Shown: one piece after another, positions 6,219 to 28,333 of the stretch
Layout: each line of letters starts with the position of its first letter
How positions within the stretch are numbered: position 1 is the first letter of the stretch
NCBI GenBank assembly: GCA_031286165.1
Contig: JAITUU010000032.1
Coordinates: 1 to 64,000 of the forward strand
Source: Bacteroidales bacterium
Lineage (GTDB): Bacteria; Bacteroidota; Bacteroidia; Bacteroidales; UBA1715
Length of the DNA: 64,000 bases
Direction of reading: 5' to 3'
Notes under the pieces: model-generated
What the model saw: only the letters and a program-made list of their open reading frames with translations
The model's database searches: none
Told to the model about the DNA's origin: nothing
Program-made: the position numbers and the translations under genes

Positions 6219-6764
6219 TTAATTTTTTTGATGTAAAAAATCAGAAAACTGTGTTTTTAAAGTCGTCAAAGCCCTTGTAATGTTGGCTTCTACGGCTTTG
6301 AGAGAAATATCTAATTGTTCTGCAATTTCTTTGTTTTTTTTGTTTTCAAAACGGCTCAATTCAAAAACTTCGCGGCAACGATTGGGCAATGCCTGAATAG
6401 CCGTGTGTATGCGTTCCTGCAATTCGGTGGTCAAATACGGGTCTATGTGTTTTGCCTCTATTTCCTTCAATTCATCGTAGGCTACCGTAGCATAATTCTC
6501 CGCTATTTTTCTGTGTTTCAGTTGATTAAGGCAAGTATTTTTTACTGCACGAAATAAATACGCTTTGAGTGAAGTAATTCCTTCAAGACTTTCTTTTTGT
6601 TCCCATAGTTTCAAAATCACCGTTTGCACCACCTCTTCGGCTTCGTCTTCGTCTTGCAAAATAGATGCGGCAAATACACACAACATAGAATAATATTGTG
6701 TGTAAATAGATTGAAAGTAGTCTTCCCACTTTCTTTCTTCATTTTCGTGTGTGTGTGCAGTCAT
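6219..6764 (-). CDS. ECF-type RNA polymerase sigma factor
   Basis: 181 residues. Region 2 lies around residues 20-85 (ILQDEDEAEEVVQTVILKLW and LKAYLFRAVKNTCLNQLKHR) and region 4 around 120-175 (IQALPNRCREVFELSRFENK, then KEIAEQLDISLKAVEANI, the helix-turn-helix). This is the FecI/RpoE-like group typical of Bacteroidota. It is transcribed with fecR 58 bp downstream. A -7 box and TTTG -33 element lie just upstream, so basal expression probably uses the housekeeping sigma. Confidence 0.93.
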   Translation of the reverse strand: MTAHTHENEERKWEDYFQSIYTQYYSMLCVFAASILQDEDEAEEVVQTVILKLWEQKESLEGITSLKAYLFRAVKNTCLNQLKHRKIAENYATVAYDELKEIEAKHIDPYLTTELQERIHTAIQALPNRCREVFELSRFENKKNKEIAEQLDISLKAVEANITRALTTLKTQFSDFLHQKN

Positions 6765-6793
6765 CTATTTTTGCGTTGCGTACAACAATTTCG

Positions 6794-6821
6794 CAAACAT
6801 AAGACTTTTTTTTCAGTCAAA
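6794..6821 (-). promoter_or_regulatory. Promoter of the ECF sigma/fecR operon
   Basis: On the minus strand TATGTTTG (6794-6801) is a TAnnTTTG -7 box, and TTTG at 6818-6821 is a -33 element 16 bp upstream. The sigma ATG is 30 bp downstream of the box. Confidence 0.55.
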
Positions 6822-6919
6822 TAGTTGCACGGCGGCATTTTTTTGTGCATTTTTCTATGTTCAAGTGCAAAAAAATCGTATTTTTACTCATAGTTTCACA
6901 TTCACAAACACCTCTTAGT

Positions 6920-7453
6920 ATGACACTACTTCATTCACACACAAGCAGCGAGCACACCGTAACGGCGGCGGCGCACGCTATGGTTTCGGCAGCAATTACC
7001 GCACCCAAAGCACGAGGAATTTCGCATCTGCACGCCTGCGTGGTACTCGGCGAAACAAAACAAGCAATAGCGCAGAAAATGCTTGCACTTTCGCAAGAAT
7101 TTTCACTGCCAAGTTTTGAACGCGATGCACATAATTTAGAACACGCCGAAGCCTTAGTGCTTTTTGGCAGCAGCATAGAAACCATGAATTTAAAACTCTG
7201 CGGCATGTGCGGTTTTGAAAATTGCGCCGAAAAACGCAAACACCCGCTCGTTCCCTGCGCCTTCAATCCAGGCGATTTGGGCATAGCCATAGGTTCGGCG
7301 GTGAGTGTGGCTATGGATTACAGAATAGATAACCGCATACTCTATTCCGCAGGGCAAGCAGCACTGCGCATGGGAATTTTTCCGGAAGAAGTGCGCATTT
7401 GCTACGGAGTTGCACTCAGCGTGAGCCATAAAAACATTTTCTTCGACAGATAA
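6920..7453 (+). CDS. DUF2148 (ferredoxin-like domain) protein
   Basis: 177 residues from the ATG at 6920. An in-frame ATG at 6857 would add a short hydrophobic stretch and cannot be ruled out. The motif CGMCGFENCAEKRKHPLVPC (about residues 94-113) and the following GDLGIAIGSAVSVAMDYRIDNRI fit the DUF2148 family, which is described as containing a ferredoxin-like Cys cluster. Four Cys in this segment could bind an iron-sulfur cluster. The function is unknown. It is divergent from the ECF sigma operon and followed by tRNA-His. Confidence 0.85.
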   Translation: MTLLHSHTSSEHTVTAAAHAMVSAAITAPKARGISHLHACVVLGETKQAIAQKMLALSQEFSLPSFERDAHNLEHAEALVLFGSSIETMNLKLCGMCGFENCAEKRKHPLVPCAFNPGDLGIAIGSAVSVAMDYRIDNRILYSAGQAALRMGIFPEEVRICYGVALSVSHKNIFFDR

Positions 7454-7508
7454 TCACAAAAAAATCACGAAAAAGCGCGAAAAATAGTGTGCAATATAAA
7501 AAAATATG

Positions 7509-7516
7509 TATCTTTG
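7509..7516 (+). promoter_or_regulatory. -7 box for tRNA-His
   Basis: TATCTTTG matches TAnnTTTG and lies 19 bp before the tRNA 5' end. Confidence 0.55.
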
Positions 7517-7534
7517 CACACCAAAAAATTACAT

Positions 7535-7612
7535 GGTGGTTGTAGCTCAGTTGGTTAGAGCACTAGATTGTGGTTCTAGGGGTCGCCGGTTCGAACCCGG
7601 TCTCCCACCCCA
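7535..7612 (+). tRNA. tRNA-His (GTG)
   Basis: The cloverleaf has D-arm GCTC, anticodon stem CTAGA/TCTAG with loop TTGTGGT (anticodon GTG at 7570-7572), and T-arm GCCGG/CCGGT with TTCGAAC. An extra G at 7535 faces C at 7609, the G-1:C73 identity element of tRNA-His, and CCA is encoded at 7610-7612. Odd point: the acceptor strands GTGGTTG (7536-7542) and CTCCCAC (7602-7608) leave two mismatches (T5-C68 and T6-T67). Confidence 0.9.
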
Positions 7613-7646
7613 AAAAAGGTATCGGAACTTCTTCGATACCTTTTTT
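7612..7646 (+). terminator. Strong intrinsic terminator after tRNA-His
   Basis: AAAAAAGGTATCG (7612-7624) pairs perfectly with CGATACCTTTTTT (7634-7646) around a 9-nt loop: a 13-bp stem with a built-in T6 tract. It separates the tRNA from ribF 22 bp further on. Confidence 0.9.
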
Positions 7647-7667
7647 ACTTTTTAATACAGCAAAGCC

Positions 7668-8609
7668 ATGCACATACACCGCAATTTCGACCATTTTCAG
7701 GCGCAAAATCCAATTGTTACCATTGGAATGTTCGATGGAGTGCACGCCGGTCATCGCAGTATTTTAGCGCAGTTGCACCGCTTAAAACGCTTACATAGTG
7801 GCGAATCGGTGCTCATAACCTTCGACCCGCACCCGCAATTAGTGTTTCGCAACAATCCAAATTTCGGCATACTTACCACCCTTGAAGAAAAACTCGCACT
7901 ACTCGAACAAGTACACTTAGACCACTGCGTAATTCTGCCTTTTACAAGCGAATTTTCGCAACTCAGCGGCGAAGAATACATAGAAACCATTCTGTATAAA
8001 GGCACGCGAGCGCACACCGTAGTAATAGGCTACGACCACAATTACGGCAAACATGCGAGCGGCGATTTTGCCCTCATGCAGCGTATGGGCGAGCACTACC
8101 ATTTTGCGGTGGAAAAAATTGCCGCCTTCGATGTGCACGAAACTCACGTGAGTTCCACAAAAATTCGCAACGCCTTGCGCGAAGGAAATGTGGACAGTGC
8201 AAAAGAATTTTTGACCTACGCCTACTCACTTGCAGGAACAGTGGTGCAAGGCAAGCAGATTGGGCGCACGCTCGGTTTTCCTACGGCAAATATTGCTCCC
8301 GATAGCGACCTCAAAATTATTCCCGCTACGGGCGTGTATGCCGCGTGGTGCGAAATAGACAACAAAAAACACCCCACAGTGGTAAATATTGGCACCAATC
8401 CCACCATAGCACAGGGGTTGGCACAAACTATTGAAGCACATATTTTAGATTTCTCCGGCGATGTGTACGGAAAATCGGCACGCCTGTATTTTGAAAAACG
8501 CCTGCGCTCGCAAGAAACATTTTCTTCGCTCGAAGAACTCAAAACCGCCATTGGACGCGATTGTGCACAGGCTCGCACATTCTTCGGCGAAACTGCTTGC
8601 AAATTATAA
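7668..8609 (+). CDS. ribF: Bifunctional riboflavin kinase / FMN adenylyltransferase
   Basis: RibF converts riboflavin to FMN and then FAD. The 313-residue protein opens with the FAD synthetase nucleotidyltransferase domain: GMFDGVHAGH at residues 20-29, and VSSTKIRNALREGNV (about 159-173) as the ISSTxIR motif. The C-terminal flavokinase domain has GRTLGFPTANI (about 198-208) and the conserved VVNIGTNPT. Length is normal. It starts right after the tRNA-His terminator. Confidence 0.96.
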   Translation: MHIHRNFDHFQAQNPIVTIGMFDGVHAGHRSILAQLHRLKRLHSGESVLITFDPHPQLVFRNNPNFGILTTLEEKLALLEQVHLDHCVILPFTSEFSQLSGEEYIETILYKGTRAHTVVIGYDHNYGKHASGDFALMQRMGEHYHFAVEKIAAFDVHETHVSSTKIRNALREGNVDSAKEFLTYAYSLAGTVVQGKQIGRTLGFPTANIAPDSDLKIIPATGVYAAWCEIDNKKHPTVVNIGTNPTIAQGLAQTIEAHILDFSGDVYGKSARLYFEKRLRSQETFSSLEELKTAIGRDCAQARTFFGETACKL

Positions 8610-8663
8610 TTAATGCTGTATTTTTACGTTCGCAAAATAACACGGTAAATTCACTACGGAATT

Positions 8664-11357
8664 ATGGAAAAATCCGAAAAACTCTCAAAAATATGGCGTA
8701 TTGCTCGAAAAGTACTCCTGTGGCTCTCCATTGTTTTTGCGATACTGCTCATTACTTCCCTCGTTCTTTCTTACGTGTATCGCGATAAAATTACCAATTT
8801 CGTAGGTCAGGAACTTGTGAGCCAACTCAATGGCGACATTCGCATAGAAAAAATCAATCTTTCATTTTGGCACAGTTTTCCCAATGTTACCATACAATTA
8901 CACTCCGTATTGGCGCACTCCACCGATAGTTTCAATCGTGCTCAATTCTCTCACAACACCGATACCGCACTCTATGCCAATCGTATCTCGCTGGTTTTCA
9001 ATGCTATTGATTTTTTCAATCAACGCTATATTATTCAGCACATAGATATAAATAAAGCAAAATTATTTTACTATACCGATAAATCAAACCATCATAATTG
9101 GAATTTTATAAAACCTTCGGCAGATACCACCACCCAAAATTATTTCATAGAACTCTCAAAAATCTCACTTTTCAATACCTCTCTCACTCTGCATTTACTG
9201 CCACAAGAATTTTATACACGGCAATATGCCGAAGATTTACTCGTGCAGGGCGATTTTTTTAGCGAAACTATTCGTTGTGCCGTTTCGGGCGAAGTGCACA
9301 GCACATTTATAGAACTGAGTAACACACGCTATGCGCAGAATTACGACCTGAAATTCAAAACCGATATTGCAATAGATAGTGTAAGTGTGGCACTCGAAAA
9401 TTGTTCGCTTTCGCTGCCTTTCCTCGATTGCAAGGCAAACGCGCACATTAGCACCAATACAAAAAATCCGTACATCAACGCGCAATACACTATTTCAGTG
9501 CCTTCGTTCAAAGACTTGCAACCCGAATTACCCACCGATATTATAGAAACTATTGCCCCCTACGAAATTGACGGAAAACTAAACTTGCAAGGCTGGTGCA
9601 AAGGTACAATCAGCGACAAAACCATGCCGGCAATAGAGGCAAAAATTGTCTGCGAAAAGGGCGAAATGCTGGTAGAAAACGAAAAACTTACATTTTCATT
9701 CTCCACTATGGCAAAAAGTTCCGATGCCGGAAATCTCACCGCATACAAATTCAATGACCTGCAATTCGATGCCGCATTGAAAAATTCTACCGCCAGCGGA
9801 CTTGCCACATTGAGCGATTTGGAAAACCTCAACGCCGAAGTGCAGGCGCAAACGAACATAAATGTATCAGACCTTGCAACATTTACAAAATCAACCGACT
9901 ACACACTTGACGGCACAGTCAAAGGTAGGGTGCACTATCATGGAAGTTTACTTGATTTACAGAATATTACCCCTGCGTTTTTCACAAAAAAAATGCTTTC
10001 TGCACAATTGCAAGCCGAAAATGTGAGTTACACAGAAAACGAAAAATCACCCTTTGTTTTTTCTAAAATCAACGGAAAATTCGACATTCAAGGTACTGAC
10101 ATTCAATTAATTGATACCATAAGCGGCGTAGTGCAAAATAATACCTTCACCCTGCGCGGAAAACTTATGCACATTCTGCCCTATATGTGGAGCGACAATC
10201 ACTCTGCATCGCTTGTGGACGGCGCAATAGAACTCGGCGAACTCAATCTTACACCCTTTGTAAATTACCTTAATGCGCAGCCTGCGAGCAATTCGCAGCA
10301 AACACTTACCTTTGAAACTACCATAAAAGCGCAAAGTGTGCAATACGAAAAAAATCAGGTTAAAAATCTCTCCACGAAACTCCGCTACACCGGCGATGTG
10401 CTGCAACTCACGGCACTTTCGGCGCAGAGTTTACACTACGATAAACACGTGTTCAAAAACCTAAAAACCGAACTCACCTACGCCAACAATTCCCTGCATT
10501 TCCCCACCATACAGTGCGCATTTTTGAGCGGAACCTACGCAGGTTCGGCACTTGTAACCTTTGCCAACGATGCCACCACCCACTGCAAAATCGACGGTTC
10601 CATAAAAACCATGTCTATTCGCGAAGTGTTCAGTGCCTTCAACAATTTCGACCAAACCTTTTTGCAGGCACAGCAAATCAATGGCGTGGTGAATGCCGAT
10701 TTTGCACTTTCCATGAAATTGGATAAAAACAACGATGTGGACTACTCTACCGTGAATTTGAACAGTAAAATCAATGTAAAAAACGGCGAAATTTCCAATT
10801 TTGAACCCTTCGTGGCTATCGGGAAAAAACTCAAAGTCGATGGATTTAACAACGTAACTTTCAATCAAATAGAAAATACACTGACCATAAAAAACGATAC
10901 CGTGCACATTCCGCGTATGGATATAAATACCAACGTATTTGAACTCAAAGTTTCGGGCACGCACACCATTAGCAGCAATGAATTTAAGTATTTTATCAGC
11001 GTGTATTTGAAAAAAACCCTCGCCACCATGTTCCAAAAACACAACAAAACCGAAGATTTCGGCGAAATTGAACAAAATACCGATGGCAATATCATAGTGC
11101 CGCTCAAACTTTTCGGCACACCCGATACATTCAATATCGACTACGATTTTAAAACCTCGCTGCGCAATGTAAAACAAAGCGTGGAACAACAAAAAAGCGA
11201 GTGGCGCACCATCATCAGTGGCGGGCAAACACCTCCTCCTGCGGAAAATACCGAAAAATCACAATCGGGCAGCACACAACCAACTTCGGGCGACAACACT
11301 CAAAAAGCAAAGAAAAATACCCCTCCTATTTCCTCCGGTTTCGAGATTGAGTATTAA
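8664..11357 (+). CDS. AsmA-like inner-membrane/periplasmic protein
   Basis: 897 residues. One N-terminal membrane helix (about 15-40, VLLWLSIVFAILLITSLVLS) is followed by a long periplasmic body beginning FVGQELVSQLNGDIRIEKINL, typical of AsmA N-terminal domains. An AsmA-like C-terminal segment (about 690-800) contains DFALSMKLDKNNDVDYSTVN and IKNDTVHIPRMDINTNVFEL. The last 50 residues are a Pro/Ser/Thr/Gln-rich tail. AsmA-family proteins are repeating beta-groove proteins linked to outer-membrane assembly and lipid transport; which role applies here is unknown. No partner gene is adjacent. Confidence 0.85.
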   Translation: MEKSEKLSKIWRIARKVLLWLSIVFAILLITSLVLSYVYRDKITNFVGQELVSQLNGDIRIEKINLSFWHSFPNVTIQLHSVLAHSTDSFNRAQFSHNTDTALYANRISLVFNAIDFFNQRYIIQHIDINKAKLFYYTDKSNHHNWNFIKPSADTTTQNYFIELSKISLFNTSLTLHLLPQEFYTRQYAEDLLVQGDFFSETIRCAVSGEVHSTFIELSNTRYAQNYDLKFKTDIAIDSVSVALENCSLSLPFLDCKANAHISTNTKNPYINAQYTISVPSFKDLQPELPTDIIETIAPYEIDGKLNLQGWCKGTISDKTMPAIEAKIVCEKGEMLVENEKLTFSFSTMAKSSDAGNLTAYKFNDLQFDAALKNSTASGLATLSDLENLNAEVQAQTNINVSDLATFTKSTDYTLDGTVKGRVHYHGSLLDLQNITPAFFTKKMLSAQLQAENVSYTENEKSPFVFSKINGKFDIQGTDIQLIDTISGVVQNNTFTLRGKLMHILPYMWSDNHSASLVDGAIELGELNLTPFVNYLNAQPASNSQQTLTFETTIKAQSVQYEKNQVKNLSTKLRYTGDVLQLTALSAQSLHYDKHVFKNLKTELTYANNSLHFPTIQCAFLSGTYAGSALVTFANDATTHCKIDGSIKTMSIREVFSAFNNFDQTFLQAQQINGVVNADFALSMKLDKNNDVDYSTVNLNSKINVKNGEISNFEPFVAIGKKLKVDGFNNVTFNQIENTLTIKNDTVHIPRMDINTNVFELKVSGTHTISSNEFKYFISVYLKKTLATMFQKHNKTEDFGEIEQNTDGNIIVPLKLFGTPDTFNIDYDFKTSLRNVKQSVEQQKSEWRTIISGGQTPPPAENTEKSQSGSTQPTSGDNTQKAKKNTPPISSGFEIEY

Positions 11358-11467
11358 GGAGTTACTAATAAGATTTGTACCAATATGCTAATATGACACT
11401 ACGCAGATAAGAAAGCATTGTCGTTGTGTTTGCCACTATTCACAAACGCCTTCACTTTTTTGCACAA

Positions 11468-11494
11468 AAAAAGCAACTCTTAGAGTTGCTTTTT
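11468..11494 (-). terminator. Terminator of tRNA-Asp (and possibly of the AsmA gene)
   Basis: AAAAAGCAACTCT (11468-11480) mirrors AGAGTTGCTTTTT (11482-11494). On the minus strand the stem is followed by seven U residues (A-run 11466-11472), immediately after the tRNA-Asp 3' end. Confidence 0.85.
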
Positions 11495-11495
11495 G

Positions 11496-11569
11496 CGGTC
11501 TGGACGGGACTCGAACCCGCGACCCCATGCGTGACAGGCATGTATTCTAACCAACTGAACTACCAAACC
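11496..11569 (-). tRNA. tRNA-Asp (GTC)
   Basis: The minus strand reads GGTTTGG TA GTTC ... with acceptor partner CCAGACC (one G-T pair), anticodon loop CTGTCAC giving GTC, T-arm GCGGG/CCCGT with TTCGAGT, and discriminator G at 11496. CCA is not encoded, unlike the tRNA-His in this window. Confidence 0.95.
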
Positions 11570-11693
11570 TTGTTTTTCAGTGGTGCAAATGTACTACTAT
11601 TTTTCGTTCCTGCAAATTTTTCAATCACTTTTTTACGCTTTTTTTCTCCCGAAAATCTACTGTGCTTTTTTTCAATGGGTTACAATGTGTGCA

Positions 11694-13841
11694 TTATTTC
11701 AATTTTTGCCCTTTCCACTGTACTTCCATTATTGCCGAAGGCACTACCGTAGGTGTTTGACTTTTTCCATTAACTACAATAGATTGCTGCCCCACTTGTT
11801 TTGTTACATATTCACTCAATTCACCGAGAGTAACTTCGCCGTTACTTTCTTGTAATTTTTTAAGCACATAATAGGTAAACATTCCATGTCCTTTTTCGCG
11901 GTAAGGATAGGCAGTTTCGTTACCTTGCGCAGCAGAAAATACCACCATATTGCCCGTAGGTTCGCTTGGAGTAACTTTAATAGCCACACCTCGCGCCGAA
12001 GCAAGCATAGTACCGCTGCGCTGTGCTCCACTAAAACAAGCGTCCATGAATACCGTTACCGTTTGCGTAGGCATAGCACCAAGTTGTTTATACAAATCAT
12101 CGAGTTTATACGCACTTTGTACACTACTTCCATAACCGTCTATGGGCAGTAAATATGCAGATTTGGAACTTTCATCGGGAATACCATGCCCCGCATAGTA
12201 GAATAAAATATTTGCCTCGCCATTGTACGCATTGGCAACTTGATGTATCCAATCAAGTTCACTGCGCATTTCGTTGAGTGTGGCATCTACGGCAAAATGT
12301 ATGTTTGTTTCGGGAATACCAAGCGTTTGAACACAGTATTTTTTGAATGTTTCGCCATCATTGTGCGCAAATTCCACCTTCGATTCTTTCTTATAATTCT
12401 CATTGGCTATTATAATTGCAAATGTTTTATTGTTTTTACCACTTGTGGTGGGAATATTTATATCAACATCTGATTTTCCCACTGAAATATTTGTTGTAGA
12501 AATTGTTTGCGAACCTTGCGCCGTTTGTGAGGCAAATGTTTCATAGTATTCTGCATCGAGAGGTGCAAAATTGTAGGTAATTTGCGCAGTGGAATAATTG
12601 AGCGATGCCTGATTACTATATTTGTAATGTTTGCTCGATGCCGTAGAAAAAATCATTTCCGTAAGTTCAAGTTTATCGTTATTGATTACAAATTGAGGCA
12701 TTCTTTTACATGTTTCCCATTCTTTTTTGAAGGCTTTCGCTTCTTCAATAGGTACCGGAAGTAACAAATTTCCATACACACTGTTTTCTATCAAATACAC
12801 TTCATTATCGGCATCATACACGCCTATGGTCATACTTCCTATCGGCATTTTCGGCACAAATTCGGTAAGGTAGGCTTGTTCGGCTTCTTTGAATAATTCC
12901 GCAACTTTTACTTTTCGCGTATCTTCGTTCACTCGCTGCTGCCAATACACCGTTTTTTCGTACTCTCCTTTCTGTTGCCATTCATTAATTTGAGGTTCTA
13001 CATAATTTTTGGCAAATTGTACGAATAAAATTGTTGGTTGCAGTTCATTACTTTTTTCCTCTTTTGCCGGCGGTACTTGTACTTGTGCCACCTCAACGTT
13101 GTTTTCCGATGTTACTCTCTGTTCTGTGGGATTTACCACAGTTCCGGTTTTGTCAATAGAAACAAATTTTCTTTTTACTTGCACCGTAGCAAGTCCGTTT
13201 GAAAAATCTTCGGCATAGAAATATTGATACGGAATTACAAGATTCCCTGTTTTATCAATATAGCCCCAATATCCGTTTTTTCTTACTCGTGCAAATCCTT
13301 CGGAAAATTTTTCTACCCCATAATAATCCGCGGAGATTACAAGGCTTCCGGAAGTATCAATGTAACCAAAAAGCCTGTGAATACGTACCGGCGCAAGTCC
13401 CTCTGAAAAACATCCCACCCATTTATACGTACAAGGAATTATTATTGTGCCACTTTCATCGGCAAAACCACATTTTTTACCAACTCGAATAGGAGTCAAT
13501 GTTCCACCTGTGCTCTCATTTTTTTTCGGAGTGAGGTCTTGAACAACTTTTTGAGTTGAGATAGGAGCATTATAGTCCGCAGGATTTACAATTTGTCCGT
13601 CTTTATCTATATACAATTCCTTTCCGGCAATGTGCACTTTTGCAAGATTGGGAATTTCGGCAGAAAGCGGATATACGGTTACTGCCATTTTCCCATAATC
13701 GTAGGGCGGTATTATTTTACCTTTTGCATTCACTATACCATATTGCCCTTTGTTATTTTGTTTTACAAACGACTGTGCATAACACTGAGCAGTAACTGCC
13801 CAATAGAGTAGCATTGTTATTAAAATTCGTATCTTTTTCAT
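11694..13841 (-). CDS. Exported caspase-family (C14) peptidase with WG repeats
   Basis: 715 residues. A signal peptide (MKKIRILITMLLYWAVTAQC) leads to four or five WG/KWG-type repeats at about residues 28-235 (such as GYIDTSGSLVISADYYGVEK and GYIDKTGNLVIPYQYFYAED). A linker region (about 260-460) follows, then a caspase-like domain (NKTFAIIIANENYKKESKV...). The catalytic dyad is visible: His552 in FYYAGHG and Cys602 in MDACFSG. Known members are metacaspase- or gingipain-like cysteine peptidases; WG repeats are thought to bind peptides or surface ligands. It is the last gene of a four-gene exported set. Substrate unknown. Confidence 0.9.
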   Translation of the reverse strand: MKKIRILITMLLYWAVTAQCYAQSFVKQNNKGQYGIVNAKGKIIPPYDYGKMAVTVYPLSAEIPNLAKVHIAGKELYIDKDGQIVNPADYNAPISTQKVVQDLTPKKNESTGGTLTPIRVGKKCGFADESGTIIIPCTYKWVGCFSEGLAPVRIHRLFGYIDTSGSLVISADYYGVEKFSEGFARVRKNGYWGYIDKTGNLVIPYQYFYAEDFSNGLATVQVKRKFVSIDKTGTVVNPTEQRVTSENNVEVAQVQVPPAKEEKSNELQPTILFVQFAKNYVEPQINEWQQKGEYEKTVYWQQRVNEDTRKVKVAELFKEAEQAYLTEFVPKMPIGSMTIGVYDADNEVYLIENSVYGNLLLPVPIEEAKAFKKEWETCKRMPQFVINNDKLELTEMIFSTASSKHYKYSNQASLNYSTAQITYNFAPLDAEYYETFASQTAQGSQTISTTNISVGKSDVDINIPTTSGKNNKTFAIIIANENYKKESKVEFAHNDGETFKKYCVQTLGIPETNIHFAVDATLNEMRSELDWIHQVANAYNGEANILFYYAGHGIPDESSKSAYLLPIDGYGSSVQSAYKLDDLYKQLGAMPTQTVTVFMDACFSGAQRSGTMLASARGVAIKVTPSEPTGNMVVFSAAQGNETAYPYREKGHGMFTYYVLKKLQESNGEVTLGELSEYVTKQVGQQSIVVNGKSQTPTVVPSAIMEVQWKGQKLK

Positions 13842-23469: not shown

Positions 23470-24840
23470 ATGTCGAATAAATCACTATTTCAAAAAAAAG
23501 CAGAGAAAATTGCCTTCAACGAAAATCATAGAAAAACCATTCGGTTTAATATGGGGAAATACTACGCAGCGGTGAACGCAGGCAAGGCTCGTTATAACAA
23601 TTTGGAGGCTACTCGCACTCGCACTGCCAATATAAAACGACATACGCTGGAAAATTTGGCGCAGTATTTACAAGAATTTGAAGAAACTTTTACGCGCAAT
23701 GGTGGCGAAGTACTGTGGGCACGTACAGCAGACGATGCAGTGCAATTTATTTCACGTATTCTACAAGAACACAACGTAAAATCGGTGGTAAAAAGCAAGT
23801 CGATGACCACCGAAGAAATAGAATTGAATCACGAACTTGAAAAAATCGGTATAGAATCGGTGGAAACCGATTTGGGTGAATATATAGTGCAACTTGCCGG
23901 CGAAAAACCCTATCACATAGTAACACCGGCTATGCACAAATCGAAACGCGATGTGGCGGAATTATTCCACAACCATTTTAATTTTCCCCTCGATAGCACA
24001 GCAGAAGAAATGACGGCGTTGGCACGCGAGAAACTACGCGAAAAATATTTGGCGGCAGGCGCGGGAATTACCGGTGCAAATTTTGTGATTGCCAACAAAG
24101 GTGCAATTTGCGTTACCGAAAATGAAGGAAACGCAATTATGAGTACCGCTTTCCCTCCTATTCACATTGCCATTGCCGGAATAGAAAAAGTTATTCCTTC
24201 CATGCAGGATTTGGCGGTATTTTGGGCACATTTAGCGCAACACGGTACAGGGCAGGCAATTTCTTCGTATAGTTCCATGTTTAGCGCAGCGAAAAAAGAA
24301 GGCGAAAGCGATGGTCCGAAAAAAATGTACGTGATATTGCTCGACAATGGTCGCACGAATTTATACAAAAACAAAACTTTCAATGTTGCGCTTTCGTGCA
24401 TACGCTGCGGAGCCTGCCTCAATGCCTGCCCGATTTATAAAAACATAGGCGGCTACACTTACAATACCACCTATCAAGGTCCTATTGGCACGGTCATTAC
24501 ACCGCATTTAAAAAATTTTGCCGACTACGTGCATTTAAGTTCGGCATGTTCACTTTGCGGCGCGTGTTCATCTGTGTGCCCTCAGCGCATACCGCTCCAC
24601 GAATTAATTCTCGAAAACAGAAAATTGGCGGTACAAGAAAAACTTTCTCCCGAAATTGAACGAATAGGCATGAAAGGATTTGAGTTTATTACCGCCAAAG
24701 GTTCGCGCATGGATAGCGTGAATGGTACCGTAAAAAATACCGCCATAGCACTTTTTGCAAAAAATGCGTGGGGCAAAAAACGCGCTATGCCACGATTTGC
24801 AACATTATCCTTCCGTAAATTATATAAAAAGAATACGTAA
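23470..24840 (+). CDS. lutB: LutB/LldF-type iron-sulfur protein (lactate utilisation)
   Basis: 456 residues. The N-terminal domain is of the LutB/YkgF kind (KSMTTEEIELNHELEKIGIE and GAICVTENEGNAIM, about 110-225). Two CxxCxxCxxxC clusters follow: CIRCGACLNACPIYKNIGG (about 312-330) and SACSLCGACSSVCP (about 357-370), for two [4Fe-4S] centres. LutB is the middle subunit of LutABC, which oxidises L-lactate. Here no lutA or lutC is adjacent on either side, so the partners must lie elsewhere or the protein has another electron-transfer role. Confidence 0.9.
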   Translation: MSNKSLFQKKAEKIAFNENHRKTIRFNMGKYYAAVNAGKARYNNLEATRTRTANIKRHTLENLAQYLQEFEETFTRNGGEVLWARTADDAVQFISRILQEHNVKSVVKSKSMTTEEIELNHELEKIGIESVETDLGEYIVQLAGEKPYHIVTPAMHKSKRDVAELFHNHFNFPLDSTAEEMTALAREKLREKYLAAGAGITGANFVIANKGAICVTENEGNAIMSTAFPPIHIAIAGIEKVIPSMQDLAVFWAHLAQHGTGQAISSYSSMFSAAKKEGESDGPKKMYVILLDNGRTNLYKNKTFNVALSCIRCGACLNACPIYKNIGGYTYNTTYQGPIGTVITPHLKNFADYVHLSSACSLCGACSSVCPQRIPLHELILENRKLAVQEKLSPEIERIGMKGFEFITAKGSRMDSVNGTVKNTAIALFAKNAWGKKRAMPRFATLSFRKLYKKNT

Positions 24841-24899: not shown

Positions 24900-26237
24900 T
24901 TATTTCTGTTTCATTATGGTAAAAATGGTGGACAATTTCACTTTTTTACCATACATAAGCAGTCCCGATTTATACATTCGCGCGGCGAAAAACATACTTG
25001 CCACGCAGGAAAGCAGGAGTGTAAATACCGAAAGTAGCACTTGCCAATAAGGAACGCCGAAGGGCAAACGCGCCATCATTGCAATAGGAGCGGTGAAGGG
25101 TATGAACGAAAGCCACTGCGCCACTACTCCTGTGGGATTCACAATAATACTATTGAGCAACACTATACTGAGAATGAGCGGCAAACTCACCGGAATAATG
25201 AATTGCTGCGTATCGCTATCGTGGTCGAGCAGTGCACCAATACCGGCAAAAATACCGCCGTAGAGTAAATATCCAACTATGAAAAAGAAGAAAAACGCCG
25301 CGAACATAACACCCCAATTCACGCCGTCAAGTGTTTGAAATAGATCTATCACGTAATCGTATTGCACGGTATTCGGGGTAAATTGCACTGCATTTGTGGA
25401 ACTTTCCAGCGTTTGCGCAAGTTCGGGCAGTGGCGTAGGATTATAAATTTCGGGAAATATGAGTTTTTGTGCAGCAGTTACTATGGCAAAACTCAGTGCT
25501 ATCCACAACACAAATTGTACTAACCCTACCAAGCAAATGCCGAGAATTTTTCCCACCATGAGTTGAATAGGTTTCACCGAAGACACAATAACTTCCACCA
25601 CGCGATTGCTTTTTTCTTCTATCACTCCGCGCAGCACCAGCACACCGTACATAAATATGAAAAAATAAATCATAAGTGCCGCAGCCACCGCCATAATAGA
25701 TTTTTTGGTAAGCGAACTTTCTTCGTCTATATATTCACCATCACTTGTCCATTTTTGCACACCAATACTCACCGGCGTGCGCACACGCTTAATAGTTTCG
25801 GGCGACACATTTTCTTTTATCAACGCCATATATTCCAAATCGCGGCGCAAAACATAACCTACGTATGCTTTCAAGGCATTGTCTATCCACACGTTGGAAT
25901 AAATAATTGCCGTGTTCGAGGCAAAAATATTGCCCGGAATAAAGAGTACGGCATCAAACCCGGAATTTTCAAAATCCTTACGAATTTCTTCCACAGTAAC
26001 TTCGGTAACTATGGTAAAATGGTAGTTTTCAAAATCTTTAATCGTTTCACCAAGTATATGAGTTTCGTCTATAATTGCAACGGTATGAATTTGATTTTTC
26101 TCGATTTTTTGCAACCACAGCGGCACAATCAACATAGCAGCAATAAGCAAGGGACCCACAATACTCATTACAATAAACGATGTTTTTTGTATGCGTGAGG
26201 TAAATTCGCGTTTGAATATCAGTGAAATAATGTTCAT
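24900..26237 (-). CDS. ABC-2 type transporter permease (NatB-like)
   Basis: 445 residues. A cytoplasmic start (MNIISLIFKREFTSRIQKTS) leads to TM1 (about 22-42, FIVMSIVGPLLIAAMLIVPL). A large extracytoplasmic domain (about 45-180) follows, then five to six membrane helices from about 185 to 435, including IYFFIFMYGVLVLRGVIEEK, whose EKSNRVVEVIVSS is typical of ABC-2 permeases. Its ATPase is three genes upstream (28333-27407), with the radical SAM and Cys-rich genes between, 20 bp from the latter. Substrate unknown; NatAB-like exporters move sodium, drugs or peptides. Confidence 0.9.
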   Translation of the reverse strand: MNIISLIFKREFTSRIQKTSFIVMSIVGPLLIAAMLIVPLWLQKIEKNQIHTVAIIDETHILGETIKDFENYHFTIVTEVTVEEIRKDFENSGFDAVLFIPGNIFASNTAIIYSNVWIDNALKAYVGYVLRRDLEYMALIKENVSPETIKRVRTPVSIGVQKWTSDGEYIDEESSLTKKSIMAVAAALMIYFFIFMYGVLVLRGVIEEKSNRVVEVIVSSVKPIQLMVGKILGICLVGLVQFVLWIALSFAIVTAAQKLIFPEIYNPTPLPELAQTLESSTNAVQFTPNTVQYDYVIDLFQTLDGVNWGVMFAAFFFFFIVGYLLYGGIFAGIGALLDHDSDTQQFIIPVSLPLILSIVLLNSIIVNPTGVVAQWLSFIPFTAPIAMMARLPFGVPYWQVLLSVFTLLLSCVASMFFAARMYKSGLLMYGKKVKLSTIFTIMKQK

Positions 26238-26257
26238 TAATCAGCAAATGTAAGTAG

Positions 26258-26737
26258 TTAATTATTAGTATCTTCCTGCAAAACAACTTCACCCAAGAGT
26301 GGTACTTCGTCAAGCGGCGGAGTTTCCGGTACCGGCATTATGCCCGAAAGTTGCCATTCGTCATCAGAATTTTGCTGCGTTTCGTTTCCTCCTTGCGTGC
26401 ATTTCGGATTGTCTTGCTGCTCTTGTTTTGTTGTATCTTGCGGCATAGGCATATCTCCTTGCAATGGTTGTTCTACGGCATCGCCCATACACGCCGCCAT
26501 AGAAAGTGCCACTCCCAGCGACACGGTGGCTATACTGATACGTTTTCCGGCGCATTTACGTTTATACAGTTCATTTTCTATATAGCGCAACTCCGCATCG
26601 CAGCGCGGACAAGTTCCTTTGCACTCGCCGACAAAGATACATTCTTCGGTACTGTACTCTATTTCATTTTCTTGTGCTATGCGCAGGCGAATTTCTTTCA
26701 GTTGTTCGCAAATATCTTTTCCTTTTGTCTTTTTCAT
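26258..26737 (-). CDS. Small Cys-rich protein with one membrane/lipoprotein segment, possible rSAM substrate
   Basis: 159 residues from the ATG at 26737, whose first bases overlap the radical SAM stop as ATGA; an ATG two codons earlier is possible. The N-terminus KKTKGKDICEQLKEIRLRIA is charged. Cys33, Cys39, Cys43 and Cys46 form CIFVGECKGTCPRC, a probable metal site, with Cys10 and Cys62 nearby. A hydrophobic stretch (about 67-82) ends in SMAAC83MGD, a lipobox-like site. The rest is a Pro/Gln/Asp-rich tail with Cys113. I recall similar KGKD...GTCPxC proteins in gut Bacteroidota without known function. Tight coupling to the radical SAM enzyme makes it a candidate substrate or partner. Confidence 0.8.
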   Translation of the reverse strand: MKKTKGKDICEQLKEIRLRIAQENEIEYSTEECIFVGECKGTCPRCDAELRYIENELYKRKCAGKRISIATVSLGVALSMAACMGDAVEQPLQGDMPMPQDTTKQEQQDNPKCTQGGNETQQNSDDEWQLSGIMPVPETPPLDEVPLLGEVVLQEDTNN

Positions 26738-27426
26738 ACGCATTTTATTCTGTTGGCATTATTATCGCCCATTAATTTAGATTCTCTTATATTTTTTTTG
26801 CGAGTGATGTTATAGGTAAAAATTTCAATATCGGTCAATCCCATTTCATGCAAAGTGCTCACGCTGGTTTCAATATCGGTTTCGGTATTATAATTCTCAA
26901 TTCTCGGCACGCGCACTCGTATTTTTTTAGACTTTCCTTGCTCTATCAAAAACTTCAAATTCGTAATTGTGTGCAAGTTACTCTTTTTTGTGTATTTTTC
27001 ATACGTTTCAGGATTCAAATCTTTGCAATCCACAATCCAATAATCTACCACAGATACGAGTTTTTCTATATTTTCAAAAGGAACATTCAGCGAAGTTTCC
27101 ATTGTTATCGTCCATTCCGCACCGCACATTTCGCGAAATTTCGCAATAAAATCGGGATATAAACAAGGTTCGCCGCCGCCAAAGGTAATTCCGCCGCCGG
27201 TTGCCGCAAAATACAAATTGTCTATTTTTACCGCATCGTACAATTCTTGGGGTGTATAGTGCTGTACTTTCGCATCAACACTCAGCGAATGAGGATTTAA
27301 ACAATATGCGCACCTAAGCGGACAGCCCCAAAACGCAGCCAACGTGGTTACTCCCACACCGTCTGTTGCCAAGCGATGGCGCGAAATTCCTATAAAGGGT
27401 GCAGGTTTATTTGTTTGTTTGTTCAC
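26734..27426 (-). CDS. Radical SAM enzyme (activating-enzyme-like)
   Basis: 230 residues from a GTG start at 27426, which overlaps the ABC ATPase gene by 20 bp. The cluster motif is C35xxxC39xxC42 (GCPLRCAYC), followed by GGGITFGGGEPCLYPDF (about 76-92), the SAM-binding GGE motif in the form used by pyruvate formate-lyase and ribonucleotide reductase activases. There is no second ferredoxin-type cluster and no SPASM Cys set at the C-terminus. No glycyl-radical enzyme is in the window, so modification of the Cys-rich protein encoded next is one explanation. The gene overlaps that neighbour by 4 bp. Confidence 0.88.
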   Translation of the reverse strand: MNKQTNKPAPFIGISRHRLATDGVGVTTLAAFWGCPLRCAYCLNPHSLSVDAKVQHYTPQELYDAVKIDNLYFAATGGGITFGGGEPCLYPDFIAKFREMCGAEWTITMETSLNVPFENIEKLVSVVDYWIVDCKDLNPETYEKYTKKSNLHTITNLKFLIEQGKSKKIRVRVPRIENYNTETDIETSVSTLHEMGLTDIEIFTYNITRKKNIRESKLMGDNNANRIKCV

Positions 27427-28333
27427 GACTCACCAAATCTATAAAAATACTGTGCATATCAGGAATTACCTGCGAAAATGACACTATTGCGCCAAACTGC
27501 GTGCAGTGGCGTATCACATCGTTTGCCGAAGAATTGTCGAGCAACTCCAACACAAATTCACTTTGTTCGTCCTCTTTATGTTGTTCTATAATTTTATACG
27601 AAGTATTGAGCGAAAGCATCAAGGTATCTACATAACCCGAAAAACGAATGCGATATTGATTTTTCGCAAAACTTTGCTTGATGTGCGCAAGATTTCCTTC
27701 AAGAATTTTTTCAGATTTATGAATCAAAGCAATGGAATTGCACAATTCTTCCACAGAATTCATATTATGCGTAGAAAGAATAATAGTCATACCTTCTGCT
27801 TTCAAACGCAAAATTTCTTCCTTCAATCGCTGTGCATTCACAGGGTCGAATCCACTAAATGGTTCATCGAGTACAAGAATTTTCGGTTTATGAATAACCG
27901 ATACTATGAACTGAATTTTTTGTTGCATTCCTTTTGAGAGTTCCTCCACTTTTTTGTGCTCCCAATTTTGAATTTGCAAGCGTTCTGTCCACAAATTCAA
28001 TTCGTGCTGGGCATTGTGGCGGCTCATGCCTTTGAGTGCCGCAAAATAATAAATTTGTTCGGCAACTTTCATTTTTTTATACAATCCGCGTTCTTCGGGC
28101 AAATAGCCCATACGGTGCACATCGGCGGCTGCAAGTGACTGCGAATTGATGGTAATACTACCACTATCGGCAGTAAAAATTTGATTTAAAATGCGTATAA
28201 ACGTAGTTTTTCCGGCACCATTTGGACCCAGCAAACCGAAAATTTCTCCTTCGGCTATCGACACACTCACATTGTTCAATGCTTTGGTGTTGGCAAATTC
28301 TTTTGAAATATTCTGTGCGCAAATGTAAGTCAT
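27407..28333 (-). CDS. ABC transporter ATP-binding protein
   Basis: 308 residues. Walker A LLGPNGAGKTT (about 34-44), Q-loop GYLPEERGLYKKM, signature LSKGMQQK (about 131-138), Walker B ILVLDEPFSGFDP (about 151-163) and switch His in LSTHN. A C-terminal domain (about 220-308) of the DUF4162 kind is common on NatA-like ATPases. The cognate permease is probably 24900-26237. The start is 15 bp after the proB stop, so all five genes may be one transcript. Confidence 0.93.
   Translation of the reverse strand: MTYICAQNISKEFANTKALNNVSVSIAEGEIFGLLGPNGAGKTTFIRILNQIFTADSGSITINSQSLAAADVHRMGYLPEERGLYKKMKVAEQIYYFAALKGMSRHNAQHELNLWTERLQIQNWEHKKVEELSKGMQQKIQFIVSVIHKPKILVLDEPFSGFDPVNAQRLKEEILRLKAEGMTIILSTHNMNSVEELCNSIALIHKSEKILEGNLAHIKQSFAKNQYRIRFSGYVDTLMLSLNTSYKIIEQHKEDEQSEFVLELLDNSSANDVIRHCTQFGAIVSFSQVIPDMHSIFIDLVSREQTNK

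Follow-up and report, generated by a model that had tools for sequence, protein, structure and literature searches.

A radical SAM enzyme paired with a modular family of Cys-rich exported proteins: a candidate one-enzyme, many-substrates modification system of gut bacteria

Results

Gene organization of the locus

We analysed a stretch of 64,000 nucleotides – the window, by which we mean this whole stretch – from a Bacteroidales bacterium (GTDB lineage Bacteroidales; UBA1715), comprising positions 1 to 64,000 of contig JAITUU010000032.1 in assembly GCA_031286165.1. Our subject is a radical S-adenosylmethionine (rSAM) enzyme and the Cys-rich protein encoded beside it, whose genes lie between those for the ATPase and the permease of an ATP-binding cassette (ABC) transporter. 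As argued below, enzyme and Cys-rich protein probably belong to a widespread and apparently undescribed modification system of gut bacteria in which one enzyme would serve many substrates. The four open reading frames (ORFs) were confirmed on the minus strand; sites in the tail of the Cys-rich protein were scored with a position weight matrix (PWM).

27407–28333, minus: ABC ATPase (ABC_tran and DrrA1-3_C), with the permease gene directly alongside in 11/11 sister genomes; judged a neighbour outside the system
26734–27426, minus: rSAM enzyme, GTG start, 230 aa, Pfam Radical_SAM
26258–26743, minus: Cys-rich protein, the putative substrate (head, signal peptide/lipobox and motif-bearing tail), 161 aa, no Pfam match
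26492–26722, minus: conserved head domain and signal segment, residues 8–84, defined from two alignments; invariant Cys 12, 35, 41, 45 and 48
26489–26500, minus: lipobox-like MAAC with predicted lipidated Cys85, read from the sequence; Cys85 at least 90% conserved in an alignment of relatives
26450–26464, minus: tail motif 1, LQGDM (Gly96), PWM score 10.9
26336–26350, minus: tail motif 2, LSGIM (Gly134), PWM score 10.0; Gly134 at least 90% conserved in an alignment of relatives
26285–26299, minus: tail motif 3, LLGEV (Gly151), PWM score 5.7
24900–26237, minus: ABC-2 permease, Pfam ABC2_membrane_3; judged a neighbour outside the system

The anatomy given in an earlier note on this DNA is accurate. 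The ATPase and rSAM genes overlap by exactly 20 bp, and the ATGA overlap between the rSAM gene and the Cys-rich gene holds when the latter starts at its second ATG (26737), the rSAM stop codon TGA lying within GTATGA; if the first ATG (26743) is used, the overlap is 10 bp instead. Twenty bp separate the Cys-rich gene from the permease gene. The Cys pattern CIFVGECKGTCPRC (Cx5Cx3Cx2C) is also exactly as described; a further conserved Cys occurs at residue 12, and the lipobox-like MAAC ends at residue 85.

An activase-like enzyme whose usual partner is often missing

The rSAM enzyme carries a CX3CX2C cluster motif (CPLRCAYC) and a DGxG motif, and is the sole member of its compact subfamily (205–230 aa) in the window genome. 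Its nearest NCBIfam families are activases of glycyl-radical enzymes, yet it misses every curated cut-off: against TIGR02494 it scores 132.7 bits where 174.35 are required, and all equivalogs fall far below theirs. An AlphaFold2 model (pLDDT 90) finds its best PDB match in pyruvate formate-lyase (PFL) activase with bound peptide (3cb8, TM 0.78). The sequence alignment with PFL activase begins at the DGxG motif, and the Arg of the activase motif DGPGxR is replaced by Thr. Because the three cluster Cys are the only invariant Cys of the subfamily, no SPASM or Twitch cluster is recognised; Pfam likewise gave no SPASM match, and in the model the rSAM core occupies the whole protein. Neither the enzyme nor the Cys-rich protein's head matched Pfam PqqD, the family searched as a RiPP (ribosomally synthesised and post-translationally modified peptide) recognition element, divergent examples of which are easily missed.

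The earlier note had remarked that no glycyl-radical enzyme lies nearby. The absence extends to the whole window genome and to the sister genome G002: PF01228 was missing from 9/14 head-bearing genomes in all, in a search that was positive for E. coli, Bacteroides and Lactococcus. No glycyl-radical partner tracks the enzyme, and we rejected the possibility that it activates a distant glycyl-radical enzyme.

The Cys-rich protein belongs to a modular family

Relatives of the Cys-rich protein share its head and vary in their tails, so that together they form a modular family. The head comprises the first ~80 residues, with five invariant Cys (consensus GKxxCxxLKxIRxxIAxxNxIxxxxxxCx5CxGTCPxC, then a second helix and GK), and leads into a signal peptide or lipobox. 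A single-sequence search of genome contigs with the whole protein from the window gave no matches; a search of GTDB genomes with an alignment profile of the head gave 303 relatives, and the counts of loci below refer to the best 79 loci among these. They fall in Bacteroidales, in Lachnospiraceae/Oscillospiraceae and in one Chloroflexota bin, and derive mostly from rumen or intestine according to record titles. In 55 full-length relatives none of the five Cys varies, and this conservation spans two phyla. A lipobox-like site occurs in 90 of 128 relatives, and a site resembling that of signal peptidase I in another 25. Behind the head stand short acidic or Pro-rich tails, TonB_C domains or domains like CarboxypepD_reg (carboxypeptidase-regulatory-like). 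In whole-genome searches a further genome of the genus gave six head matches and another family three, with several of them lying in tandem.

That the head is an already described domain was rejected: it reached the cut-off of no family in Pfam, NCBIfam or PADLOC, and the low-confidence model matched no solved fold. Very weak matches to iron–sulphur (Fe-S) proteins were seen in NCBIfam (E 0.0037) and in the genome searches (E about 1e-3). Spread of the head by phages was also rejected, viral contigs having given one partial match.

Some loci bear on how the family changes. At L081 and L085 (about 6637–10224) a single rSAM gene is followed by tandem arrays of as many as five head proteins; the heads are near-repeats and the tails differ, as if recombination had swapped them. 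At L016 (4036–4533) a TonB_C-like protein has a head truncated after the first helix, without the Cys cluster, and adjoins two intact head proteins and a KilA-N-like gene (domain names by our reading). This reads as a decaying or recombining copy.

Enzyme and head co-occur

Of 393 genomes from the order to which the window belongs, 15 have a member of the rSAM subfamily, and exactly these 15 have the head; treating genomes as independent, which is not the case, would put the probability of so complete an overlap at about 1e-26.7. Two extra head matches at E about 1e-3 (G226 and G328) are, by reading, hydrogenase/NuoG-like Fe-S proteins. In the GTDB survey the rSAM subfamily shares a locus with the head in 61/79 cases, and in the remaining 18 each genome holds exactly one rSAM copy elsewhere (18/18). 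The nearest rSAM–head pair lies on the same strand at all 61 shared loci, with 43 pairs overlapping or at most 20 bp apart and 11 showing a 4-bp overlap. These counts suggest that a genome has a single enzyme for one substrate or several.

The head was thus never found without the enzyme (15/15 genomes of the order, 79/79 in GTDB); exact co-occurrence across genomes, together with shared loci, bears out the suggestion of the earlier note that the two proteins work together. Both outcomes that the note had named as refutations, head homologues without such neighbours and a glycyl-radical partner that tracks the enzyme, were looked for, and the suggestion still stands. That their association is not due to chance follows from the conservation of the head between phyla and from the link across the 79 GTDB loci. 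The subfamily is rare in the phylum at large: it occurs in only 2/395 genomes sampled across it, both of the window's order. A tree of 58 rSAM proteins can be explained only by several switches of phylum (Bacillota and Bacteroidota), of which two or more lie on branches with good support; it is compatible with transfer between phyla in the gut, with the caveat that single cases could be misbinned contigs.

A genus in which head and enzyme are fused

In one genus (L127–L129 and L181–L183) the head is fused to the C-terminus of the rSAM enzyme. The fused gene lies downstream of dnaA and is followed, in 6/6 genomes, by an ORF for a glycine-motif peptide of 61–92 aa. All six peptides begin MLIxDxxK and carry sites of the form xxG(I/L) or LxG(D/E). 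At the dnaA locus of two related genomes without the rSAM gene, neither enzyme nor peptide is found. Since the head can reside on the enzyme while the glycine-motif stretch stands as a separate peptide, the head would be the docking part – on enzyme or substrate – and the glycine-motif stretch the target; this is the strongest anatomical argument for such a division of labour. The locus as a whole is a compact RiPP-like unit.

A different arrangement is seen at L126 (G245:C11:1256000-1271000), where positions 6444–13234 hold a free 88-aa head without a membrane segment and an rSAM gene in an operon-like run. The run also holds DUF1848, a 1250-aa Sel1/BspA-LRR protein and a DUF3800 protein that matches the PADLOC candidate PDC-S51 (E 4.7e-102); a relaxase-like gene is close by. 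This is possibly a second, mobile and perhaps defence-related use of the rSAM–head pair.

A glycine motif recurs in the tails

The tail of the window protein has three motif copies, listed above. Across the family the loose pattern [LIVM]xG[DEIMVKAFQ][VIPMFL] occurs at 248 sites in tails, against 59±7 in shuffled tails. A PWM whose training set was limited to Bacillota tails (L at −2, G at 0, D/E at +1, V at +2) found 117 sites in its training tails against 3.2 after shuffling and, in Bacteroidota tails it had not seen, 64 against 10.8±3.0. The density of LxG(D/E)V is 4.2 per 1000 aa in tails and 0.06 in 613 neighbouring proteins, a 66-fold difference. Gly is the most constant position, though the search was seeded on Gly; positions −2 (Leu) and +2 (Val) show good conservation as well. 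Given this enrichment across phyla, the enzyme probably modifies the tail of the Cys-rich protein, one of the options raised in the earlier note.

Discussion

A central issue is what the enzyme does to its partner. We think it reasonably likely that the rSAM enzyme is a dedicated maturase of exported head proteins, docking on the head and modifying the glycine motifs of the tail. In each substrate the head would be followed by a signal peptide, which in many cases has a lipobox, and then by a tail in which LxG(D/E/I/M)(V/I/M) motifs recur. Co-occurrence and the fusion suggest that the ~80-residue head docks on the enzyme, which in the anaerobic cytosol would generate a 5′-deoxyadenosyl radical; the motif enrichment and the activase-like character of the enzyme suggest that hydrogen is then abstracted at the motif, as by the activases of glycyl-radical enzymes. 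The most likely site would be the glycine alpha-carbon – within the model we put the chances of this at about even – with a stable modification left at each motif. To judge from its own signal peptide, the modified protein would leave by Sec; signal peptidase would cut off head and signal as a leader, and the modified tail would remain as a lipoprotein or as a periplasmic or surface protein. A more specific proposal we hold only tentatively: that an rSAM enzyme of the PFL-activase type has been recruited to a new glycine alpha-carbon chemistry at repeated LxGxV motifs, the shared Cys-rich head bringing every substrate and perhaps completing the active site with an extra Fe-S cluster or a hydrogen-atom donor.

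Several observations weigh against the maturase reading. No above-threshold PWM site occurs in 39/82 Bacteroidota tails, many of which bear folded domains, and homology between tails survives the shuffling controls. The stand-alone peptides of the fusion genus also fall below the PWM threshold, their motif differing (xxG(I/L)(I/L), L(V/I)GDI). In G245 the rSAM gene adjoins a free 88-aa head that has no tail; the predicted structure of the head has low confidence and resembles no solved fold; and glycine as the target rests on resemblance to activases.

In the main rival reading the same enzyme and substrates would be joined by another chemistry, with a motif residue other than glycine being hit, for example through epimerisation of Val, Ile or Leu or through side-chain cross-linking. 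Conservation of Leu at −2 and Val at +2 speaks for this, and there is precedent in proteusin epimerases, whose targets are Val and Ile and which rely on one cluster together with a Cys (PMC8326336); moreover, as only the three cluster Cys of the enzyme are invariant, a head Cys could act as the hydrogen donor. We nonetheless consider it unlikely, given that the nearest relatives by sequence and fold are glycyl-radical activases rather than epimerases and that Gly is the most constant position of a motif whose search was seeded on it. Five Cys invariant in two phyla, and the tail-less head beside the enzyme in G245, invite the alternative that the head itself is modified – by a thioether or a cluster-related change, for example – and that tails are mere spacers. 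This fits poorly with a tail motif shared across phyla far above background, with a genus that keeps the head within the enzyme and a glycine-motif peptide apart from it, and with the position of the head before the signal peptide, where it would be cut off; we regard it as distinctly unlikely. That the head is instead an Fe-S or redox partner, or an anchor, of an enzyme with a non-peptide substrate strikes us as very unlikely: a C-terminal fusion is the usual place of auxiliary-cluster domains and the head has its very weak matches to Fe-S proteins, but these may be noise from Cys composition, and both the tail motif and the presence of several heads per enzyme on different exported domains would be left unexplained.

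The earlier note had proposed, as a plausible model, an operon for peptide modification and export, with the ABC pair carrying the modified protein out of the cell. At first glance the locus encourages this, its four genes overlapping or nearly touching on one strand, and the related genome G002 also has head genes – two of them – between its ABC genes, with rSAM on another contig. The permease is conserved in 13/14 genomes of the family, however, and in 11/11 sister genomes outside the genus the ATPase gene abuts or overlaps it with no rSAM gene between; the operon is interrupted only in the window genome (by rSAM and head) and in G002. The export model is unsupported because of this adjacency, and on sister-genome gene order we rejected the pair as a dedicated exporter. 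Nor is the ABC pair present at any other rSAM–head locus, so that of the co-occurrences expected for the Cys-rich protein the one with this rSAM type stands and the one with the ABC pair does not. No neighbour family recurs beyond 11/79 loci (the commonest is represented by a RimO-like methylthiotransferase, by our reading), and the head proteins bear signal peptides or lipoboxes of their own. We thus find the export model most improbable and read the ABC genes as bystanders: their operon is conserved family-wide, and in this genus it has received rSAM and head genes by insertion. Expression of rSAM and head in the window genome may still be set by transcription together with the ABC pair. On the far side of the permease gene and convergent with it, a plus-strand gene (23470–24840) encodes an unrelated Fe-S protein of the LutB/LldF type for lactate oxidation.

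Returning to the maturase reading, the pair can be set beside several known systems. With glycyl-radical-enzyme activases (PFL activating enzyme, TIGR02493/TIGR02494) the enzyme shares the activase fold, CX3CX2C, DGxG, a single cluster motif and compact size, yet it differs in scoring below every cut-off, in the change from Arg to Thr, in lacking a PF01228 partner in 9/14 hosts and in having an exported head protein as its partner. The resemblance to rSAM RiPP maturation (sactipeptides, ranthipeptides, epipeptides, proteusins) lies in an enzyme encoded beside a substrate with a leader-like N-terminus and a variable, motif-bearing C-terminus and, in one genus, in a small precursor-like peptide downstream of the enzyme; taken in the broad sense, the RiPP arrangement of a leader and repeated core motifs next to a maturase is present at the rSAM–head loci. 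Here, by contrast, no SPASM or Twitch domain was found, an 80-aa Cys-rich domain with a signal peptide at its end would serve as leader, substrates would include TonB_C and carboxypeptidase-regulatory-like proteins, and no dedicated transporter or protease was seen. TIGR04133 and TIGR04134, which we take to be models of an rSAM/lipoprotein system, gave no match to the Cys-rich protein at E up to 1 and were absent from the 25 NCBIfam matches of the enzyme. The ABC neighbours are of the broad type of NatA/NatB ABC-2 exporters (ABC_tran, ABC2_membrane_3), but their operon is conserved across the family, interrupted in this genus and placed outside the rSAM system. The PEP-CTERM/EpsH system (PMC1569441) offers another parallel – a short homology domain on many unrelated exported proteins whose phylogenetic profile is that of one enzyme – with the differences that the head is N-terminal and Cys-rich and that a radical SAM protein stands in place of a membrane sorting enzyme. 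Judged from its sequences, the rSAM–head pair works like a radical-SAM RiPP or substrate-tag system and lacks defining features of SPASM maturases and of true activases. Searches of the open-licence PMC literature gave no description of it, and one may exist outside that literature.

Such a system would account for an orphan activase-like rSAM enzyme and for a large set of lipoprotein N-termini that lack annotation, in two phyla of bacteria from rumen, termites and intestine. With lipoprotein tails predicted at the surface, a role in the envelope or between cells may be envisaged. If glycine is the target, the chemistry of glycyl-radical activases would be tied to the modification of surface proteins and peptides; and if that chemistry is indeed new, the pair would represent a new class of protein and peptide maturation common to gut Bacteroidales and Clostridia.

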